IMG/VR virus record: IMGVR_UViG_3300010397_000044
Span: 1-64,000 of that record
Reading direction: 5' to 3' (one strand)
Length of the DNA stretch: 64,000 nucleotides
Origin: a virus
Part shown: piece by piece, positions 36,453-45,702 of the stretch
Position numbering within the stretch: the stretch's first letter is position 1
How the letters are laid out: each line of letters starts with the position of its first letter
The notes under the pieces: generated by a model
The model's database searches: none
What the model saw: only the letters and a program-made list of their open reading frames with translations
What the model was told of the DNA's origin: nothing
Translations under genes and position numbers: made by a program

Positions 36453-37943
36453 ATGGCAGAAGTAGGAGAAATTCCGGGTGGCGGAAGGCCTTGGGGAGAC
36501 GCTTTCTTAGTTCAGACACCGGCCTTGGACAGGTTCGCTGAACGCCAGCAGCAGCAGATGCAGCAACTAAATATGCAGCGTCAGCAAAGCGCTGTCCGGG
36601 AATCTCAGCAATTGGATGGATTGATGAATAAAGAATTGGCTAAAGTTAGAAGTGTTGATATCCCTTCTGTCTTTGATGCTTATGGCAAATATAAAAGTCT
36701 TAAGCAAGCAACTTTATTTGACAAGAGATTAACGTCCAATCCACGAGAATTAGCCAAGGCTCAAATGCAGGCTAATGCAGCCATGGGAGATTTGCAAGCA
36801 CTTATAAATAAAAGCACTCAATTGAATGATTTTCAAAAACAACTAGTTGGAGAAAGAAAAACTAAGTTTAATCTTTTTGCCGATGATTTTGGAGATAAAG
36901 TAAATACATTGAACAATACCCCTATTGACAAACTAGGAGAAGATTACACTAATCCAGATTTTTATAGATACAAAGGAGCCAATACAGACTTCGGTAAAAT
37001 GGAATTGACCGCAGCAGGTCAGCCTAAACCAACATTCGAAAAGGTAGAGCGGATAAATAACCTTCAAACCAGAAGAACACCTATTTTATTTGGGAATACA
37101 CCTACGCAGTTTTTTGAGACGTTCAAGGGGAATTTGTCACAAAGAATACCCAACAGAGACGCAGCAGCAGCATGGGAGAATATACCAGATGAACAAAAGA
37201 TAGCAGTAGATAAACAATTCGCCGCTATTTCGCCAGATAAATGGAAGCAATGGGGATTGGAAGATGCTCCAAATATACAAGCATCCAATCCAAATGACCC
37301 CGCTGAAAACTATGCAGCCTATCGGGCCAAATTGTACGCCATCAATGCTACCCCAAAACAAGGTAGATATAGGGACGAAACGGATCAGCAGGCTAAGTTA
37401 AATATGCAGTTTAATCAAAAATCTGCATTGGAAGCTATTAGGCAAAATAACAGGGTAGCACTCAAGCAGCTTAGTCACACGTTTAAACAAATGGATCAGG
37501 AGCAACAAGGCTCTAAACTAGATGAATTAGTTTCGGGTATGGTAGAGGATGCCAGAAAGTCTACTACAAAGGCATTTTATAAAACAGAGGATGGTAAAGT
37601 AGAAAGACGGCATATTATTAAATTAAGTCCTCTCCTTAAGAATCAATTCAAATTTAAAGATGATAAAGGGCATGATATTTATCCGGATCAGCTTCAAATG
37701 AATGAGGACGGCACCGAGTTTACGCCAGTATTCTACAATAGCGAAGGAAAAGAAATGAGAGGAGTAAATAAAAATCTAAGTCAGGCTATGACTGGACCGG
37801 AATTTAAAGCTATTATAGGTAAAGCTTTATTGGGAGTAAAAGAGGCAAGTAAAGGCGGTGTTAATATAGACAATAGCGATGATGATGAGCCATCTAAGTC
37901 AGCGGCTCCCACTCAAACTAAAAAGAAAATAGCAGGATGGTAG
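36453..37943 (+). CDS. Internal virion protein candidate
   Basis: A 496-residue Gln-rich helical protein (QQQMQQLNMQRQQSAVRESQ, near 30-50), with LKQATLFDKRLTSNPRELAK and a Lys-rich C-terminal third ending in a charged, low-complexity tail. No membrane segment or enzyme motif. It overlaps the 1893-residue gene by seven bases, so the two are translated together, as with the ejection proteins of P22-like phages. The role is inferred from order and composition. Confidence 0.5.
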   Translation: MAEVGEIPGGGRPWGDAFLVQTPALDRFAERQQQQMQQLNMQRQQSAVRESQQLDGLMNKELAKVRSVDIPSVFDAYGKYKSLKQATLFDKRLTSNPRELAKAQMQANAAMGDLQALINKSTQLNDFQKQLVGERKTKFNLFADDFGDKVNTLNNTPIDKLGEDYTNPDFYRYKGANTDFGKMELTAAGQPKPTFEKVERINNLQTRRTPILFGNTPTQFFETFKGNLSQRIPNRDAAAAWENIPDEQKIAVDKQFAAISPDKWKQWGLEDAPNIQASNPNDPAENYAAYRAKLYAINATPKQGRYRDETDQQAKLNMQFNQKSALEAIRQNNRVALKQLSHTFKQMDQEQQGSKLDELVSGMVEDARKSTTKAFYKTEDGKVERRHIIKLSPLLKNQFKFKDDKGHDIYPDQLQMNEDGTEFTPVFYNSEGKEMRGVNKNLSQAMTGPEFKAIIGKALLGVKEASKGGVNIDNSDDDEPSKSAAPTQTKKKIAGW

Positions 37944-40900
37944 AGGAAGATGTTATAGAAGCTCCGCCTATAGGGGACGAACAAGCCCCACCAACCCCGC
38001 CACAAGATGCGGATGAAAAGTTACGTGCATTACATTCGGCTGTTTCGCATGATTATGATATTGGCGACTTTGATACTTTCAAGAAAAAACTACAAGACGC
38101 TTCCAAAAGAAAGGCTTTCTATGACGGTATTGGTAATGAATATCAATTAGGTAGCTATGATGATTTTGAGAAGAAAATAGGATTCGTAACACCGCCAGAA
38201 CATCACGTTCAACATAGTTCATTGCAGGATATACGGCATTTGAACGATATAGCAACCGCTCCAATAGATCTTCCGCAAGGAACGGCTGCGCCTATAAATA
38301 CAGACGAACTATATGCTACCAAAAAGAAAGAAAAAGATGCATTCGCCAGTCAATTAAATGCACAATCCAAGATGCTTGGCGATCAATGGGGCATTGATCC
38401 TAAAATAGCCAAACAAGCTGTAATTGACTTCCCAGATGAGAACGATGAGGAAAAGGTAAAGGGGTTTGCTCAATTGTATAAAGACAATCCGATTTATTAT
38501 AGGAGATTAAAGGATGAAAATGATATCAGAACTGCTATAGCAAAAAGCCCAACCGGAGGGATCAACGACGCTAATATCTACAATCATTTGCAAGATGCGC
38601 AGAACTACGATCAATTGCAGCACAATATCGGCATTCAGCAAGAACTAATGACTAAAAGTGGTCTAGGTCAGGAGTATTGGGAAAAGATGAAGCAAGCCAA
38701 GGCTCCATTGATAAATACGCTTGATCCGGGTCTCCTTCATCAATATTGGAATAGCCAAGATCATAAATTAGGGTTAACCGACTTTCAGTATGCCGGGCTT
38801 GAGACACTAAAAATGTTTCAGCCGGAGTTATATAAGCAATACAAGTCCATCATAATGGAGAATAAGGGATTGGATGAAGGCGGTAATCCAAGGCCGGAAG
38901 GACAAGGTAAAAAAGGGTATGAATATGATAGAGGGGTAGAAAATGTACTATACAGCATTGAAAGACAAGGGAGACAGAATACGGCTCAATATATATCCCA
39001 GCATCAAGTTGAGTTAGGGAAGCAATTGGAGAAGGTCAAAAATGATTATCAAACTAGGATAAATAATAGCAAAGACCCAGAAGAGCAAAAGGCATTAGTG
39101 GAAGAGTTTAAAGCCAATCCCCTTATAGCAGAAGCCGGTAAATTAGAAGAGGGCCAACAGGCAATAGACTACGCCCAAAGTGAAGATCAAAGGCGGTTCC
39201 CTTTGAATTATTCCGACATGTCCACTAAGTTGGTAAAGGATGCCATGGATGGCACAACCGGGTTGATAGGGAACACCGGAAAGTTCTTTGAGGGTGTCCT
39301 GACGGGAGCTGGCCAAGCTTCGGATAATACCATTCGGTTTATAAAAAACACGTTTGTTAATATATTGGGTTCGGAAAGTTCAAAAGCCGCCCAACATGCG
39401 AAGGATATAGGTCACCAATCTTTAACAGAATTAGCCAATTACGAGCCATCTTCTTATACAGGAACTCAAAGCCCCTTGCTGATACCCGATGACCTCAAGA
39501 AGTCGGTACAGACCATAATGGATGATAGCTCTTTGTCAAATGCAGAGAAGGAGCAAAATGCCATATCATTAGTCCGGGATAACTTTGATAACATAAAAAT
39601 CAATCCTAAGGCTGGTCAGCAAAACTTGACCGGGAAAGCGGCTTTATTCACTGCTGCGAACACTTTGGGTCAGATCATAGGCATAGCCGATCAGTCGTTA
39701 TTGATGGGGGGATTATTGGGTAATGTAACGAAGGTTCAACAATTGACGAATGCCTTAGTTCCTATGTATGCTTCAACGCAAAATCAACTATACGAACAGG
39801 CATTGGCTAGGGGGGATGAGAAACCGTTGCTAAAATCCAGTATTGACGCGGCAATTATCTCCCTAGCCTCACTTATCAATCCGGACTATAAAGTAATAAA
39901 AGGAATGGTAGGGGCGGAAACCGGTTTGGGTAAAGTTATCGCTGGTGTAGATGAGGCTACTTGGAATAAAGTGTTGTCCGAAAATTCCCCCATCGTAAGC
40001 AAGTTGATGGCCGGGACTAAGGCAACCGCGCGTCAGTTAGGACTTGCCAATCTACAATATGGTCTTATTGTGCCAACCGCCCAATACGTTGTCCATAAGA
40101 ACGTCTTAAACGAAAACGCTAATTTGGGCGACATGATATTGGACGGCATGAAACAAGCTACGATATCAATGGCTATCCCAGCGTTAGCGCATGGTATTTG
40201 GGGGGGCATCAGAGCTAATCAAGTTAATCCACAGCAGAAATATGCCTTAGTCGAAGCCGGATTGCATCCACAAGAAAATATTGACCTTATTAATGGCCAG
40301 ATTGAGCGTGGTCAAATCATGCCATCCGAAGCCGATAAAATAAAGGAAACCATAAAGCAGACAGGAGAAATCCTTAAAAATGGCGAGTTTATAAAGACGG
40401 ACGGCACTCCTATGAATGAAAATGAGGTAGCGGATGTAGTTTATAACCAGCTTCGTAAAAGAGCCTTAGATGGTAAGCTACGCAATGCGGCAGACCCCAA
40501 TAAGCCCCTAATTGAAGCCAAAATACATGAGATAAATCAGGATATATCTGACCTGCATACCTCCGACGAACAAAAGCATAAGACGGAACTAAATAAGTTG
40601 CTGACCGACAATTTGGATAGGATCAAAAAGAACATGCCTGCATTCGAAGGACCTATTAGAGATGCTATTGCAGAGAATCGGCCAGAAGAAGTCATGCAGA
40701 TGATAGCCGATCAAGCAACCGAAACGACCAAAGTTGATGGAAAGGAAGTTAGTTCAAGATCGGCCACAGAAGAAATATTCGGGAAAGAATTGGTTGCGAA
40801 GGCTATTGAAATATCAAAGAAAAAGCCTGAAAAACCAGCGAATATAGAGCCGGAGGCGAAACCGGCTTCTATATCCGTTATCCGTCCCGAACAAATCAAT

Positions 40901-43618
40901 AAACCTGAAACAATAACCATAAAACCACAAGAAGATGCCCTACAAATCAATGGCCCAAGCGGCCTACTTCAATATCCACAAGAAGGAATTGGAGGCGAAG
41001 GGAGTGGACGTGGAGGAGTGGAACCAAGCCAGCAAGGGGAAATCCCTACCGGAGAAGGTGGACAACAAGGACCACAAGCAGAAGGTGGCAGCAATGTTAG
41101 CAGCCAAGAAACGCCAATCGGGCCTCCTGGGAAAGAAGTAGCAAACGATGAGCTCCCTTTTGGTCATTTGCCAGTCGGTATTTCCCATGAACGGTTTTCC
41201 GATAGGGCGAATGCCGAATTAGGGCTTGCCCCTCCTGAACGCGGTGAAGGGGTAACCTTAGAGCAGGCTATTAACAAGGGAAGAGAATTGATAAAAGAAG
41301 GGGTAAATCCGGATGATGTAGTGGCGCAATTCAAAAAGGATGGGCGGATTGATTCGTCTGCCATGAGCGTAGTACGGGCTAAATACGAGCAATTGGTAAA
41401 AGAAACCAATTATGCAGAGGATAGATATGGGAAAGATAGTCCAGAATACAAAGACGCAGTAAACGAAGAATTGAAATGGAGGGATGAGGTCATTAAACCT
41501 ATGCAGACTGAATGGCATAAAATAGGCATGACCCAACAAGGCGTATCCGATTTGGATGCCGGAACGATCACGGGGATTCGTCGTGCCGTAAAAGAGGTAT
41601 CGGGTAAAGAGTTAACCCCCGAACAGGAAAAGAAGGCTAAGGAACTATCCGACAAGGTTAAATCCCTCACAGACAGAGACAAGCAATTGCAAGCCAAAAT
41701 AGACAAACTATTGTCGGAAAATGAGAAGCTAAAAGACGATAAGACTATAAAAGAAAAAGCTAAAAGTTTAGCAGATAAAATACGCAAAGGGAAGACCAAT
41801 CGCCCGGATTCTTTTTCGGCTGCTACGCCAGCGTCATTAATTTGGGATGCGGCGGTAGAAATAGTCGCAAGTACGGTAGAGGCAGGCGGCACGTTGGCGC
41901 AAGCTGTAGCCGATGGAGTAGCTCATATTAAAGAATCCGAATGGTATAAAGGACTGAATGATGAAGAAAAGAAGGTGGCCGAAAGTGAATTTACGGATGC
42001 CCATTTGGATGTTGAGCGACCAGAAAAGAATATGGCAGAAAGATTTGTGGCTAAAAAGGACAACAAATTTACTGCTGATGAAGCCAAAGATATATGGAGT
42101 TACATCAAAGACAATTATTTGGATAAGGGAACAGAAATCCCAGATGCTATAAAAAATACGGCTAATGATTTGGGCCTTAGCGCAGAACAAGTGATCCATG
42201 CAATGAGCACTCCTAAAGGCGCAAGAGAGATTACAACCGAAATGTTCAAAACGCAATACGAAAGGAGGAAGGCTATAAATTCAGCAAAATATTTTGTAGC
42301 CAATGCTGATAAATCTGCGGTGTCGAAAGCCTTGAACAAACTGCCGTCCATCTTCTTTAACCTGAAAACATGGGGCCACGGTACGGTAGGTAACATTACC
42401 CATGCCGGGCCTAATATCTTCCGCCCATCCACTTGGAAAGCATATTGGCCTAATGTAATGAAGTCGTTTGGTTTGGCATATGGGTCAACAGCCAATTATG
42501 AGAAAGCTATAACTATTTTAAAGGCAAGCCCAAATTTTACTGAGTGGTTGCAAGCTGGATTAGCCGCTGATCCGCAGAAGACATATGATGAATATCAATT
42601 ATTAGGCAAGCCAAAGAAGGACACAAAAACCGGGCAAGCTATCCAGTGGATGAACGAAACCGGTACCCGTGGTTTTGCTGGCCTCAATTTCATGCGGTAC
42701 GACATGGCCCAAATGCTATATAATAAGGCTTCGGATGCCGCAAAAGCTGATCCTGAATTTAGGCAATATGTCGCCGAATTGGTTAACCATGCAACCGGGC
42801 ATAGCGAATGGTCACACAAAGTACCCAAAGCCATAAAGGTCATAACCTTTGCACCGGGGTTGGAGTTGTCAAGATGGCAGCGTATGATAACCGACCCGGT
42901 AAAAGCAGGGAAAACGTTCCTTTCGTGGGATAAGTCTACAGATGCAGAAAAGGCAGCGGCTAAAATTGTGGCAGCTTCTGCCGGGGAAAAAATAGCAGTA
43001 TATGGGACTCTTCTGGCTGCCAATGCTGGACTATTGGCGGCAACTGGTTCAAAACAAAGCGTCAACGTATCCGATCCTACCAAAAGTGATTGGATGCGTT
43101 TCAAATTTGCCAATAAAACGTTAGACGTGAGCGGAAACGTATTATCGCCATATAGATTATTGGCTGTATTGGTGGGGCAGGCTTATTTAGCGAACACAGC
43201 AGACGCTAAAGATATTAAGGGAAAACCGGGCGATAAAGACGCCAATACTTTAACGCAACAAGCTAGATATAAGCTTTCCCCTATAGCTGGTACAGTGACC
43301 GATATTGGAACCGGAACAGATGCAATGGGTAACGTGCTGCCATGGTCAAATGTAAAACCGTCTGCTGGACGGCATAAGTTGACATGGAAGGAATTAATAG
43401 CTAAGGAAGCTCTTCCTATTCCTGTTGCGGCTGGTTTAGAAGCATACTGGCATTCAATGGAAGAAAATGGTATGTCGGAAAGTCAAATCAGTTCAATCAT
43501 GAATGGATTATTATTGTTTGGGGTGGAAGGATTGACTGGGGCTAAATTACAGCCAGATTATTCATTGGATAAGGACAAAGAAAAATCAAAAGCAAGAACA
43601 ACTTCAAGAGCTAAATGA
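37937..43618 (+). CDS. Giant internal (polyvalent) virion protein
   Basis: The 1893 residues start with an acidic, Pro-rich stretch, then two copies of a short module, YDIGDFDTFKKKLQDASKRK and YQLGSYDDFEKKIGF (residues 36-77). Such paired 'Y..Gs..dF.kkl' units occur at the start of Bacteroidota phage internal proteins. A long helical, charged body follows, with a Gly/Gln-rich linker near 1010-1080. The C-terminal third holds hydrophobic helices (AGEKIAVYGTLLAANAGLLA) and WMRFKFANKTLDVSGN, which resemble late domains of polyvalent phage proteins ejected with DNA. No polymerase DxDxD-type motif was seen. A second ORF is overprinted at 40935-41141. Confidence 0.5.
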   Translation: MVEEDVIEAPPIGDEQAPPTPPQDADEKLRALHSAVSHDYDIGDFDTFKKKLQDASKRKAFYDGIGNEYQLGSYDDFEKKIGFVTPPEHHVQHSSLQDIRHLNDIATAPIDLPQGTAAPINTDELYATKKKEKDAFASQLNAQSKMLGDQWGIDPKIAKQAVIDFPDENDEEKVKGFAQLYKDNPIYYRRLKDENDIRTAIAKSPTGGINDANIYNHLQDAQNYDQLQHNIGIQQELMTKSGLGQEYWEKMKQAKAPLINTLDPGLLHQYWNSQDHKLGLTDFQYAGLETLKMFQPELYKQYKSIIMENKGLDEGGNPRPEGQGKKGYEYDRGVENVLYSIERQGRQNTAQYISQHQVELGKQLEKVKNDYQTRINNSKDPEEQKALVEEFKANPLIAEAGKLEEGQQAIDYAQSEDQRRFPLNYSDMSTKLVKDAMDGTTGLIGNTGKFFEGVLTGAGQASDNTIRFIKNTFVNILGSESSKAAQHAKDIGHQSLTELANYEPSSYTGTQSPLLIPDDLKKSVQTIMDDSSLSNAEKEQNAISLVRDNFDNIKINPKAGQQNLTGKAALFTAANTLGQIIGIADQSLLMGGLLGNVTKVQQLTNALVPMYASTQNQLYEQALARGDEKPLLKSSIDAAIISLASLINPDYKVIKGMVGAETGLGKVIAGVDEATWNKVLSENSPIVSKLMAGTKATARQLGLANLQYGLIVPTAQYVVHKNVLNENANLGDMILDGMKQATISMAIPALAHGIWGGIRANQVNPQQKYALVEAGLHPQENIDLINGQIERGQIMPSEADKIKETIKQTGEILKNGEFIKTDGTPMNENEVADVVYNQLRKRALDGKLRNAADPNKPLIEAKIHEINQDISDLHTSDEQKHKTELNKLLTDNLDRIKKNMPAFEGPIRDAIAENRPEEVMQMIADQATETTKVDGKEVSSRSATEEIFGKELVAKAIEISKKKPEKPANIEPEAKPASISVIRPEQINKPETITIKPQEDALQINGPSGLLQYPQEGIGGEGSGRGGVEPSQQGEIPTGEGGQQGPQAEGGSNVSSQETPIGPPGKEVANDELPFGHLPVGISHERFSDRANAELGLAPPERGEGVTLEQAINKGRELIKEGVNPDDVVAQFKKDGRIDSSAMSVVRAKYEQLVKETNYAEDRYGKDSPEYKDAVNEELKWRDEVIKPMQTEWHKIGMTQQGVSDLDAGTITGIRRAVKEVSGKELTPEQEKKAKELSDKVKSLTDRDKQLQAKIDKLLSENEKLKDDKTIKEKAKSLADKIRKGKTNRPDSFSAATPASLIWDAAVEIVASTVEAGGTLAQAVADGVAHIKESEWYKGLNDEEKKVAESEFTDAHLDVERPEKNMAERFVAKKDNKFTADEAKDIWSYIKDNYLDKGTEIPDAIKNTANDLGLSAEQVIHAMSTPKGAREITTEMFKTQYERRKAINSAKYFVANADKSAVSKALNKLPSIFFNLKTWGHGTVGNITHAGPNIFRPSTWKAYWPNVMKSFGLAYGSTANYEKAITILKASPNFTEWLQAGLAADPQKTYDEYQLLGKPKKDTKTGQAIQWMNETGTRGFAGLNFMRYDMAQMLYNKASDAAKADPEFRQYVAELVNHATGHSEWSHKVPKAIKVITFAPGLELSRWQRMITDPVKAGKTFLSWDKSTDAEKAAAKIVAASAGEKIAVYGTLLAANAGLLAATGSKQSVNVSDPTKSDWMRFKFANKTLDVSGNVLSPYRLLAVLVGQAYLANTADAKDIKGKPGDKDANTLTQQARYKLSPIAGTVTDIGTGTDAMGNVLPWSNVKPSAGRHKLTWKELIAKEALPIPVAAGLEAYWHSMEENGMSESQISSIMNGLLLFGVEGLTGAKLQPDYSLDKDKEKSKARTTSRAK
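40935..41141 (+). CDS. Overprinted ORF inside the giant virion protein
   Basis: A 68-residue frame in another reading frame of the giant gene: MPYKSMAQAAYFNIHKKELE, then AKGVDVEEWNQASKGKSLPE and a basic tail. The pattern 'KSxAQAAYFxIHKxELExxGVDxxEWxxASKGxxLPE' looks like a conserved small phage protein family. In the same stretch the giant protein encodes only a low-complexity Gly/Gln/Glu linker, as expected if the small gene constrains the DNA. An ATG with a weak AAGAAG upstream starts it. Alternatively two compensating frameshifts (true or sequencing) have split the domain out of the large protein. Confidence 0.5.
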   Translation: MPYKSMAQAAYFNIHKKELEAKGVDVEEWNQASKGKSLPEKVDNKDHKQKVAAMLAAKKRQSGLLGKK

Positions 43619-45702
43619 TAAAGATATATTATATATTAGACGGAGGCGGTGGGGGCGGAGAGGAGCCGGAACAGCCCAAGAACTACAAACCATTGACAAC
43701 TGCCCAACGTGGCGAATGGAATACATTTCTGGACTATTTGGGAAGTCAGGGTAATATAAATCTGGCTGATCCACAAGTAGGGACCAATTTCTTAAATCAA
43801 TACAAAAAAAACAATCCGAATTTCTCTATAACGCCTGACTTGTTGCCATCTATCCAATACGAACAATACCAATTCAGAAAGGGCAAAAAATTCGGAAATC
43901 TTGACGAAAATCAATTAAAATACATTCGTCAAGGTCTTCCACAGACATATTTGGCGAAGCCAGTAAGCCCCATAAATGGCATTATAAACCCTGAAACCGC
44001 CAAGCTTTATTATCCGCAAGTAGGTCAATATGGGACCGACTTAGAAGCTTATTATGATGCAAAAGTGGGTAAAAGTCCCGCAGTAGCACCCGTGACAACG
44101 AATGCTACTTTAGTAACCCCCATGGTCTATCCAGACAAGGACACACTAAGAAAGAAATATGGCGGTAATCCTTATCTGGCAGATCAAAATAGATACAATT
44201 GGGGCAATAAATTACAGAATGAATTTCCACTTACGGGGGGTAAAGTTAAAGATGCCGTGGTAGATGCGGCAAAATTTAATGGAGTAGACCCTGCATTGCT
44301 ATATAGTTCAGCGATGGAAGAGGGAATGTCAGGGTCGGTAGATGCAAAATATTCAGGGAACGCCAGCGAGGCATATGTAGATTGGGCCAAAAAAAATAAT
44401 GACATAGCGGAAGAGTACCCGGTAGATAGCTTTTATAATTATGGGTTAGACCAATTTTCCGGAATGGCCTCGGGTCTTGAAAAGAAGGGATATTTACCCA
44501 AAGGCTTTAAGGAAAGATTCACGACATTCCCAGCTGAAAATGAAAAAGGAGAGCAGATAAAAGCCTCTGCCTTTAAGAAAGACTCCGATGCCCTCATAGC
44601 TAAAAGCGCAATGATGAGGCTCGCTAAAGACCAGCTTAATGACCACTTATCCACAAATAACGTAAAACTAACCCCTAAACAACAAGAGTTTTTTCTTTTA
44701 GCTAATTATAATGGCGGGGAAGGACTTATGAAAAAAATGCTTCAGTCTTACAAAGAGAAAGGGTATCTGAAGGATGATAAGTTTCTAGACCCTAAATTTA
44801 AACCGGCATCCTATGGAGAAGTTTATAAACACGTTTTGGCCCGGTTGGAAAGTGCCAAACAACTTAAAGAGGAAAAATATTTTGAAGATGATAAAAAGCA
44901 AAGTGATTTCAAAAGTTACAAAATTGCAGACAACAATAACTCTAGTGATATAAGGAATGATGAGACTGTAAATAATTCAGAAAACGAAAGTCAGTCCGAC
45001 ATTGGCCCTATTTCATTTCTTAATTCATATTATGAAAGCCCTGAATTTAAAAGAAAATCGGGGGGAAATTATGAAGCTAACAAGTCTATATATAAAAAAG
45101 GGGCTCAAATGTATGTTCCAAAAATAGTTGAAAGTGATAAAGAAGGCAGTCATTCCGTAGGCCCTGACGAACTTTTTTATTCTAAAAGATTTGAAGAAAA
45201 AGGGAGTCCCACGGTAGTTTTAGATAAAAAACAAGCCAAGGATTTAAAATATGACCTTTTTAATGATGTGCTTCCGCATGAGTATGCACACACTACAAGA
45301 CGACTTAGTCCCAATGACGAACAAAAATTTATTTTAAAAAATAAAAACAATCTGGTAAAGACCCTTTTTGAATCTTATAAACAGGATTCCAGCGGGATGC
45401 AATCAGGTAAAACCTTTTCAGATTGGGCGCATACAATTGCGGACCATACACAACTGCCGGGGGAGAATTATTCTGATCTCAATTCATTAAGGTGGAATTT
45501 GTACAAAGCTGGTATTTATGACGCTAGAAAAGGGCAAATGAATGTCGAGCACCTTAAAAAGGCTATGTCCGACCCTAAATTAAAAGATAACGAATTGTTT
45601 AATAGGCTTTTAAAGTCTTTTTCTCCGGAAGATATAGTGGAGCTAAATAACACTGTAGCATCGACTAAACCGGAAAAAGACAAGGAAGGTTCGAACTCTT
45701 AA
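43615..45702 (+). CDS. Virion-associated lytic protein with C-terminal zincin
   Basis: A 695-residue protein overlapping the previous stop by four bases. N-terminus: a Gly-rich, disordered segment, then Tyr-rich repeats. Residues about 215-400 resemble a lysozyme-like/transglycosylase fold: KVKDAVVDAAKFNGVDPALLYSSAMEEGMSG, split at loops, then the FFLLANYNGGEGLMKKML block ('aaYN.G.....' motif). Residues about 545-580 carry LPHEYAHTTRRL: H555-E556-x-x-H559 is a metallopeptidase zinc site. The fusion would open peptidoglycan by two activities during DNA entry. Domain calls are by motif. Confidence 0.55.
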   Translation: MIKIYYILDGGGGGGEEPEQPKNYKPLTTAQRGEWNTFLDYLGSQGNINLADPQVGTNFLNQYKKNNPNFSITPDLLPSIQYEQYQFRKGKKFGNLDENQLKYIRQGLPQTYLAKPVSPINGIINPETAKLYYPQVGQYGTDLEAYYDAKVGKSPAVAPVTTNATLVTPMVYPDKDTLRKKYGGNPYLADQNRYNWGNKLQNEFPLTGGKVKDAVVDAAKFNGVDPALLYSSAMEEGMSGSVDAKYSGNASEAYVDWAKKNNDIAEEYPVDSFYNYGLDQFSGMASGLEKKGYLPKGFKERFTTFPAENEKGEQIKASAFKKDSDALIAKSAMMRLAKDQLNDHLSTNNVKLTPKQQEFFLLANYNGGEGLMKKMLQSYKEKGYLKDDKFLDPKFKPASYGEVYKHVLARLESAKQLKEEKYFEDDKKQSDFKSYKIADNNNSSDIRNDETVNNSENESQSDIGPISFLNSYYESPEFKRKSGGNYEANKSIYKKGAQMYVPKIVESDKEGSHSVGPDELFYSKRFEEKGSPTVVLDKKQAKDLKYDLFNDVLPHEYAHTTRRLSPNDEQKFILKNKNNLVKTLFESYKQDSSGMQSGKTFSDWAHTIADHTQLPGENYSDLNSLRWNLYKAGIYDARKGQMNVEHLKKAMSDPKLKDNELFNRLLKSFSPEDIVELNNTVASTKPEKDKEGSNS

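Follow-up and report, generated by a model that had tools for sequence, protein, structure and literature searches.

In this study, we analyzed a window of 64,000 nucleotides (positions 1 to 64,000 of IMG/VR record IMGVR_UViG_3300010397_000044, a virus record of 78.7 kb), in which a giant gene very likely carries a second, small gene in another reading frame. The features at the locus are as follows.

37937..43618, + strand: giant gene, an ORF of 1893 aa encoding a probable virion/polyvalent-type protein and hosting the nested gene
37991..38182, + strand: N-terminal domain of the giant (residues 19-82), also present in other Bacteroidota phages
40915..40934, + strand: A-rich leader AACCATAAAACCACAAGAAG (60% A) preceding the internal start of the nested gene
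40934..41137, + strand: giant-frame linker over the nested gene, 68 codons, Gly/Gln/Glu/Pro-rich and disordered
40935..41141, + strand: nested small gene of 68 aa, in the +1 frame relative to the giant
41078..43615, + strand: C-terminal module of the giant, whose homology to locus L060 and to the giant of locus L076 starts at the nested gene

The nested ORF begins 999 codons into the giant, with its ATG at 40935 and its stop at 41139-41141, and the giant frame stays open throughout. Over the nested gene the giant frame reads DALQINGPSGLLQYPQEGIGGEGSGRGGVEPSQQGE..., of which 74% is G/Q/S/P/E/K, and by composition this is the most extreme and most disorder-like segment of the whole giant. A sequence-only reading of the window had proposed a protein-coding frame of 68 codons at 40935-41141 opposite a Gly/Gln/Glu-rich linker in the large frame; both parts held, the first being confirmed by its position and by the homologues described below. 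As for the giant itself, residues 19-82 match phrog_24532 and Cellulophaga phage proteins annotated as structural, and its C-terminal half is homologous to giants from other phages. A Pfam search of the window giant gave no domain of its own, and querying with the giant protein for close relatives returned only two, both distant, C-terminal and located on short contigs without the small gene. AlphaFold modeling of the C-terminal module with 7 sequences reached a mean pLDDT of only 49, and the model was not used. The next gene (43615-45702) overlaps the end of the giant by 4 nt. It carries a glycine run early in its sequence and, in its C-terminal part, a match to a tail protein family.

The small frame belongs to a protein family with the pattern MPYKSxAQxxYFN...GVxVxEWNxxSKGKxLP and a conserved core of about 40 residues counted from Met1, of which the window ORF is an intact member (E 3e-29 against the family HMM). 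Relatives of this frame are encoded at 50 IMG/VR loci with 46-93% identity, and most of them are stand-alone genes of around 45-65 codons whose other frames contain stops. Stand-alone copies begin at the same ATG as nested ones, and this ATG is kept in 103 of 103 loci. No significant match to the small protein was obtained in Pfam, PHROGs or PDB sequences, tblastn against the INPHARED isolate phage genomes detected no relative, and the literature searched contained no account of the family or its nested arrangement. An AlphaFold2 model built from 80 sequences is helical (mean pLDDT 83), and Foldseek of this model against PDB and BFVD gave nothing significant. The family is undescribed, yet common in IMG/VR. 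It could be objected that the 68 codons are a chance ORF, protein-like by accident, as the composition of a linker can keep a second frame free of stops; the dozens of homologous stand-alone genes all but exclude this. Separately, we observed four loci at which a longer protein of unknown function has the small domain at its N-terminus, fused in frame.

L078, 10001-10693: in-frame fusion, just upstream of a weakly ejection-like protein
L100, 10001-12190: in-frame fusion, just upstream of a weakly ejection-like protein
L071, 2213-3883: in-frame fusion, longer protein of unknown function
L114, 10001-10933: in-frame fusion, longer protein of unknown function

Nesting is recurrent in uncultivated phages rather than peculiar to this record. 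Among the first loci, 25 distinct copies were enclosed by giant ORFs, 427-4407 aa long and in some cases truncated by contig ends, and further searches raised the number to 29. A DNA pattern scan matched 81 IMG/VR contigs, with the gene nested in 76 (one of them, L171, truncated at 191 codons), and once duplicates were taken out, 70-71 distinct nested loci were left, which group into 44 clusters at 90% DNA identity. The scan pattern is typical of nested copies and favors one copy type. These counts bear on the proposal, also made in the sequence-only reading, that the domain is fused in frame in relatives and was separated here by two frameshifts, whether real or introduced during assembly. 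The small frame is indeed open and protein-like, as that explanation would have it, but around 70 distinct loci, drawn from different samples, have the same out-of-frame layout, the giant stays open through the segment with a downstream side homologous to other giants, and no relative carries the domain in frame within a giant, the in-frame fusions all being to other proteins. The proposal has therefore failed, and an artefact is all but excluded.

The giant occupied the +2 frame of the small gene in all nested copies, the window included. We attribute this constancy to coding content, because the frame used gives a Gly/Gln/Glu/Pro/Ser linker and the unused third frame over the small gene would read as Trp/Arg/Cys-rich. 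In addition, exactly one copy was present in 46 of the 48 whole records searched, the other two being short contigs with none, and the gene is single-copy in the window's own record as well. As records were picked for holding the gene, the 46 of 46 informs copy number and not presence.

Two kinds of start signal were recognized before the internal ATG. First, seven nested copies, mostly from GC-rich phages, have a Shine-Dalgarno sequence of 5-7 nt (L083, L131, L085, L057, L053, L059, and L045), and of the ATGs within the same giants only 3.6% or fewer have an equal match. Second, in AT-rich nested copies, including that of the window, the 20 nt before the ATG are A-rich. The A content of the window leader ranks in the top 2.3% of positions in the giant, and the combined test of A content before nested ATGs gave a Fisher p of 6e-15, a nominal value given that the copies are related. 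The window copy has no Shine-Dalgarno sequence (SD score 3, which is ordinary). A-rich leaders act as initiation signals in Bacteroidota, and the window leader is likely an initiation region independent of Shine-Dalgarno pairing, as inferred from sequence alone. An alternative would be programmed frameshifting from the giant into the small frame, producing fusions of the N-terminal giant to the small domain with no internal start. The constant frame relation is compatible with it; however, that constancy is accounted for by the linker-like content, the internal ATG with its Shine-Dalgarno sequence or A-rich leader is conserved, and stand-alone copies share the ATG. We regard frameshifting as very unlikely, with the reservation that slippery sites were not systematically tested.

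Codon-level analysis revealed constraint on both reading frames. With the small protein fixed, synonymous codons were redrawn and the openness of the giant frame was scored: for the window copy the giant frame was open in 0.15% of cases, and for the 25 nested copies with a probability of 0-0.11 each. Their product, 10^-71.5, is nominal because the nested copies are related. Among stand-alone copies, only 2 of 63 are open in the giant-equivalent frame. An omega-like ratio of 0.27 (95% 0.21-0.34) was obtained for the small frame from 32 independent nested pairs, against 0.15 in stand-alones, and for the +2 frame the value was 2.38 in nested copies compared with a phantom 3.33 in stand-alones. 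The third position of small-gene codons, which is the first position of giant codons, took 54% of changes in nested copies and 70% in stand-alones. These values are approximate, as the scan pattern fixes some codons in the tested set; a set gathered without the pattern showed the same direction of constraint. The small frame is thus under purifying selection while the giant frame is held open.

These results also bear on whether the captured small gene is an untranslated relic, surviving only since the giant needs a linker. In its favor, there are no direct translation data (ribosome profiling or proteomics) and the giant frame is held open. Against it stand the purifying selection on the small frame, the invariant ATG with its initiation signals and the absence of a second copy in any one record; furthermore, searches with the linker frame turned up no giant in which the small frame is broken, so no linker has been seen without an intact small frame. 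A relic is accordingly very unlikely. We conclude that 40935-41141 is very likely (probability about 0.87) a real nested protein-coding gene and that the giant mRNA is read in two frames, translation being inferred. The suggestion that the phage makes a second small protein from within the gene is supported by the stand-alone homologues, the conserved ATG and initiation signals, and the codon constraint.

Four arrangements of the locus were distinguished among related phages. In the first, ORF1, a gene of about 165 aa and ORF3 are followed by the small gene (L068, L079, L107). In the second, there is one giant and the small gene lies 3-22 nt after its stop (L064, L076, L093, L102). In the third, ORF1 and the 165-aa gene precede an ORF3 that hosts the nested small gene about 45 codons past its own ATG (L088, L095, L097, L130), and in the fourth the small gene is nested in a fused giant (the window, L118, L109, L061). 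Compared with the first arrangement, ORF3 in the third and fourth has around 60-70 extra codons at the nested gene. In L118, the sequence upstream of the nested gene resembles the end of ORF1 of L107, and that downstream resembles the start of ORF3 of L107. The C-terminal module of the window giant and the end of the L076 giant are homologous, and in L076 the small gene stands alone 14 nt past the stop. As relatives without the insert carry the gene behind the giant, the small gene evidently relocates into and out of the giant. We also noted that the gene of about 165 aa (phrog_16594; L068:6438-6935 and similar) lies between split giant halves and is absent where they are fused.

The number of origins of nesting was not resolved. 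A DNA tree of the small gene groups nested copies, requiring 2-3 changes compared with about 24 when shuffled, and this grouping may partly reflect convergent codon choice. Trees from codon positions 1+2 and from protein neither reject nor show a single origin, and trees of the 41 codons left it unresolved (AU p 0.29-0.52). At Ser5 (window 40947-40949) the window has the codon TCA and L162 has TCG, whereas 27 of 29 nested copies have AGC; this difference possibly hints at more than one origin, though only 41 codons are available. The DNA tree places four stand-alone copies (L119, L037, L120, L127) within the nested ones, and the +2 frame of the L119 copy is open for 123 codons. It is conceivable that these four are escapees from the nested state.

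The nested gene marks sites of domain shuffling. Across 60 loci, its upstream flanks sorted into 28 homology groups and its downstream flanks into 28 as well, and 38 pairings of the two occurred. Where there is homology on one side of the nested site, it extends to the other side in 41%/52% of comparisons; for random sites in these giants the figures are 82%/72%, so that homology between giants breaks about twice as often at the nested gene as elsewhere. For example, L118 and L128 share 342 bp around the gene at 94% identity and are unrelated downstream, whereas between L118 and L124 similarity continues downstream at 87%. In some giants, cargo-type domains lie directly beside the gene, namely a His phosphatase in L054, GGACT in L083 and L131, and a weak RelA/SpoT match in L057. 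Any linker may gather breakpoints, not solely this one, and it is unsettled whether the gene drives shuffling or sits in a tolerant linker; a role as an anchor is no more than possible.

Several of the host giants are multidomain, with LPD1, ddrB-ParB, SLT, Acb1-like, GGACT and His phosphatase domains distributed among them; LPD1 was found in the L085 and L045 giants. The nested gene of L085 lies in a giant of 4407 aa (L085:3190-16410) with sigma-70 regions 2 and 4, ddrB-ParB and LPD1, which, judged from sequence alone, may represent a sigma factor-like unit within a phage polyvalent protein. The host giants at L045:3038-10150 and L057:8225-14881 contain Acb1-like anti-CBASS / 2'-5' RNA ligase domains, and that of L045 additionally has an SLT transglycosylase. 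Stand-alone small genes adjoin the terminase large subunit or portal in L067, L098, L120, L133, and L134. From this neighborhood one might guess that the small protein is an accessory of packaging or ejection, a guess on which we lean slightly toward doubt.

The closest precedent is lambda Rz1 in Rz, where a larger phage gene encloses the whole of a small one, which is read in the +1 frame from a start of its own. Spanin genes may be embedded, overlapped or separated, and the overlap lies in a flexible linker (PMC6139136). The likeness thus extends to an overlap placed in a flexible host-protein linker and to the separated pairs of other phages. The differences are that the present family mixes nested, adjacent and stand-alone members, with insert-free relatives showing relocation, whereas no spanin family is reported to mix embedded members with overlapped or separated ones (PMC6139136), and that here a giant virion/polyvalent protein acts as host, with the nested gene at a domain-shuffling breakpoint. 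Membership of the spanins themselves was considered and rejected: the 68-aa protein is non-homologous, has no cysteine/lipobox and no hydrophobic signal, and is not a lysis gene. Several of the host giants are multidomain and modular, as are the large polyvalent proteins (Iyer et al., 2017; PMC5512222), and a term search of that paper returned nothing on an out-of-frame nested gene. Out-of-frame nested genes with internal initiation also occur in microviruses (phiX174 E in D and B in A), where they are fixed in a tiny genome; to our knowledge they do not exist as stand-alone genes moving in and out of the host gene.

We propose that ribosomes on the giant frame would cross the segment and produce a disordered linker, and that other ribosomes would start at the internal ATG and produce a 68-aa protein in its own right, basic and helical. 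The family would be an old one. Its members occur once per genome and are nested, or stand alone beside terminase/portal or just behind the giant. Nesting would have arisen when the small gene came to be traversed by the giant frame in the sole register giving a hydrophilic linker, and the dual-coding segment would then have moved as a cassette between giants, with modules swapped on either side; cassette transfer is an inference. The earlier idea of an embedded gene constraining its host frame thus probably has the direction of overprinting reversed, the small gene being the older and widespread partner. That an old small gene was overrun by the giant frame, the linker being the newer reading, is likely, again by inference. 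A bolder reading is a mobile dual-coding cassette that supplies a protein and a ready-made linker, and whose DNA serves as a homology anchor for domain swaps; we offer this tentatively, since in our judgement it falls a little short of being favored.

Nested genes are usually put down to overprinting, with a new protein created within an old gene. In this family it is the nested gene that looks old and the host linker that looks like the new reading. As the family occurs stand-alone, adjacent and nested in related phages, the route into nesting can be traced stepwise within one family, which was not possible in the spanin survey. These findings suggest that in many genomes a conserved single-copy phage protein is overlooked by gene callers. 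They also direct attention to a particular site at which giant virion/polyvalent proteins exchange domains, and some of these proteins have counter-defence-type domains.
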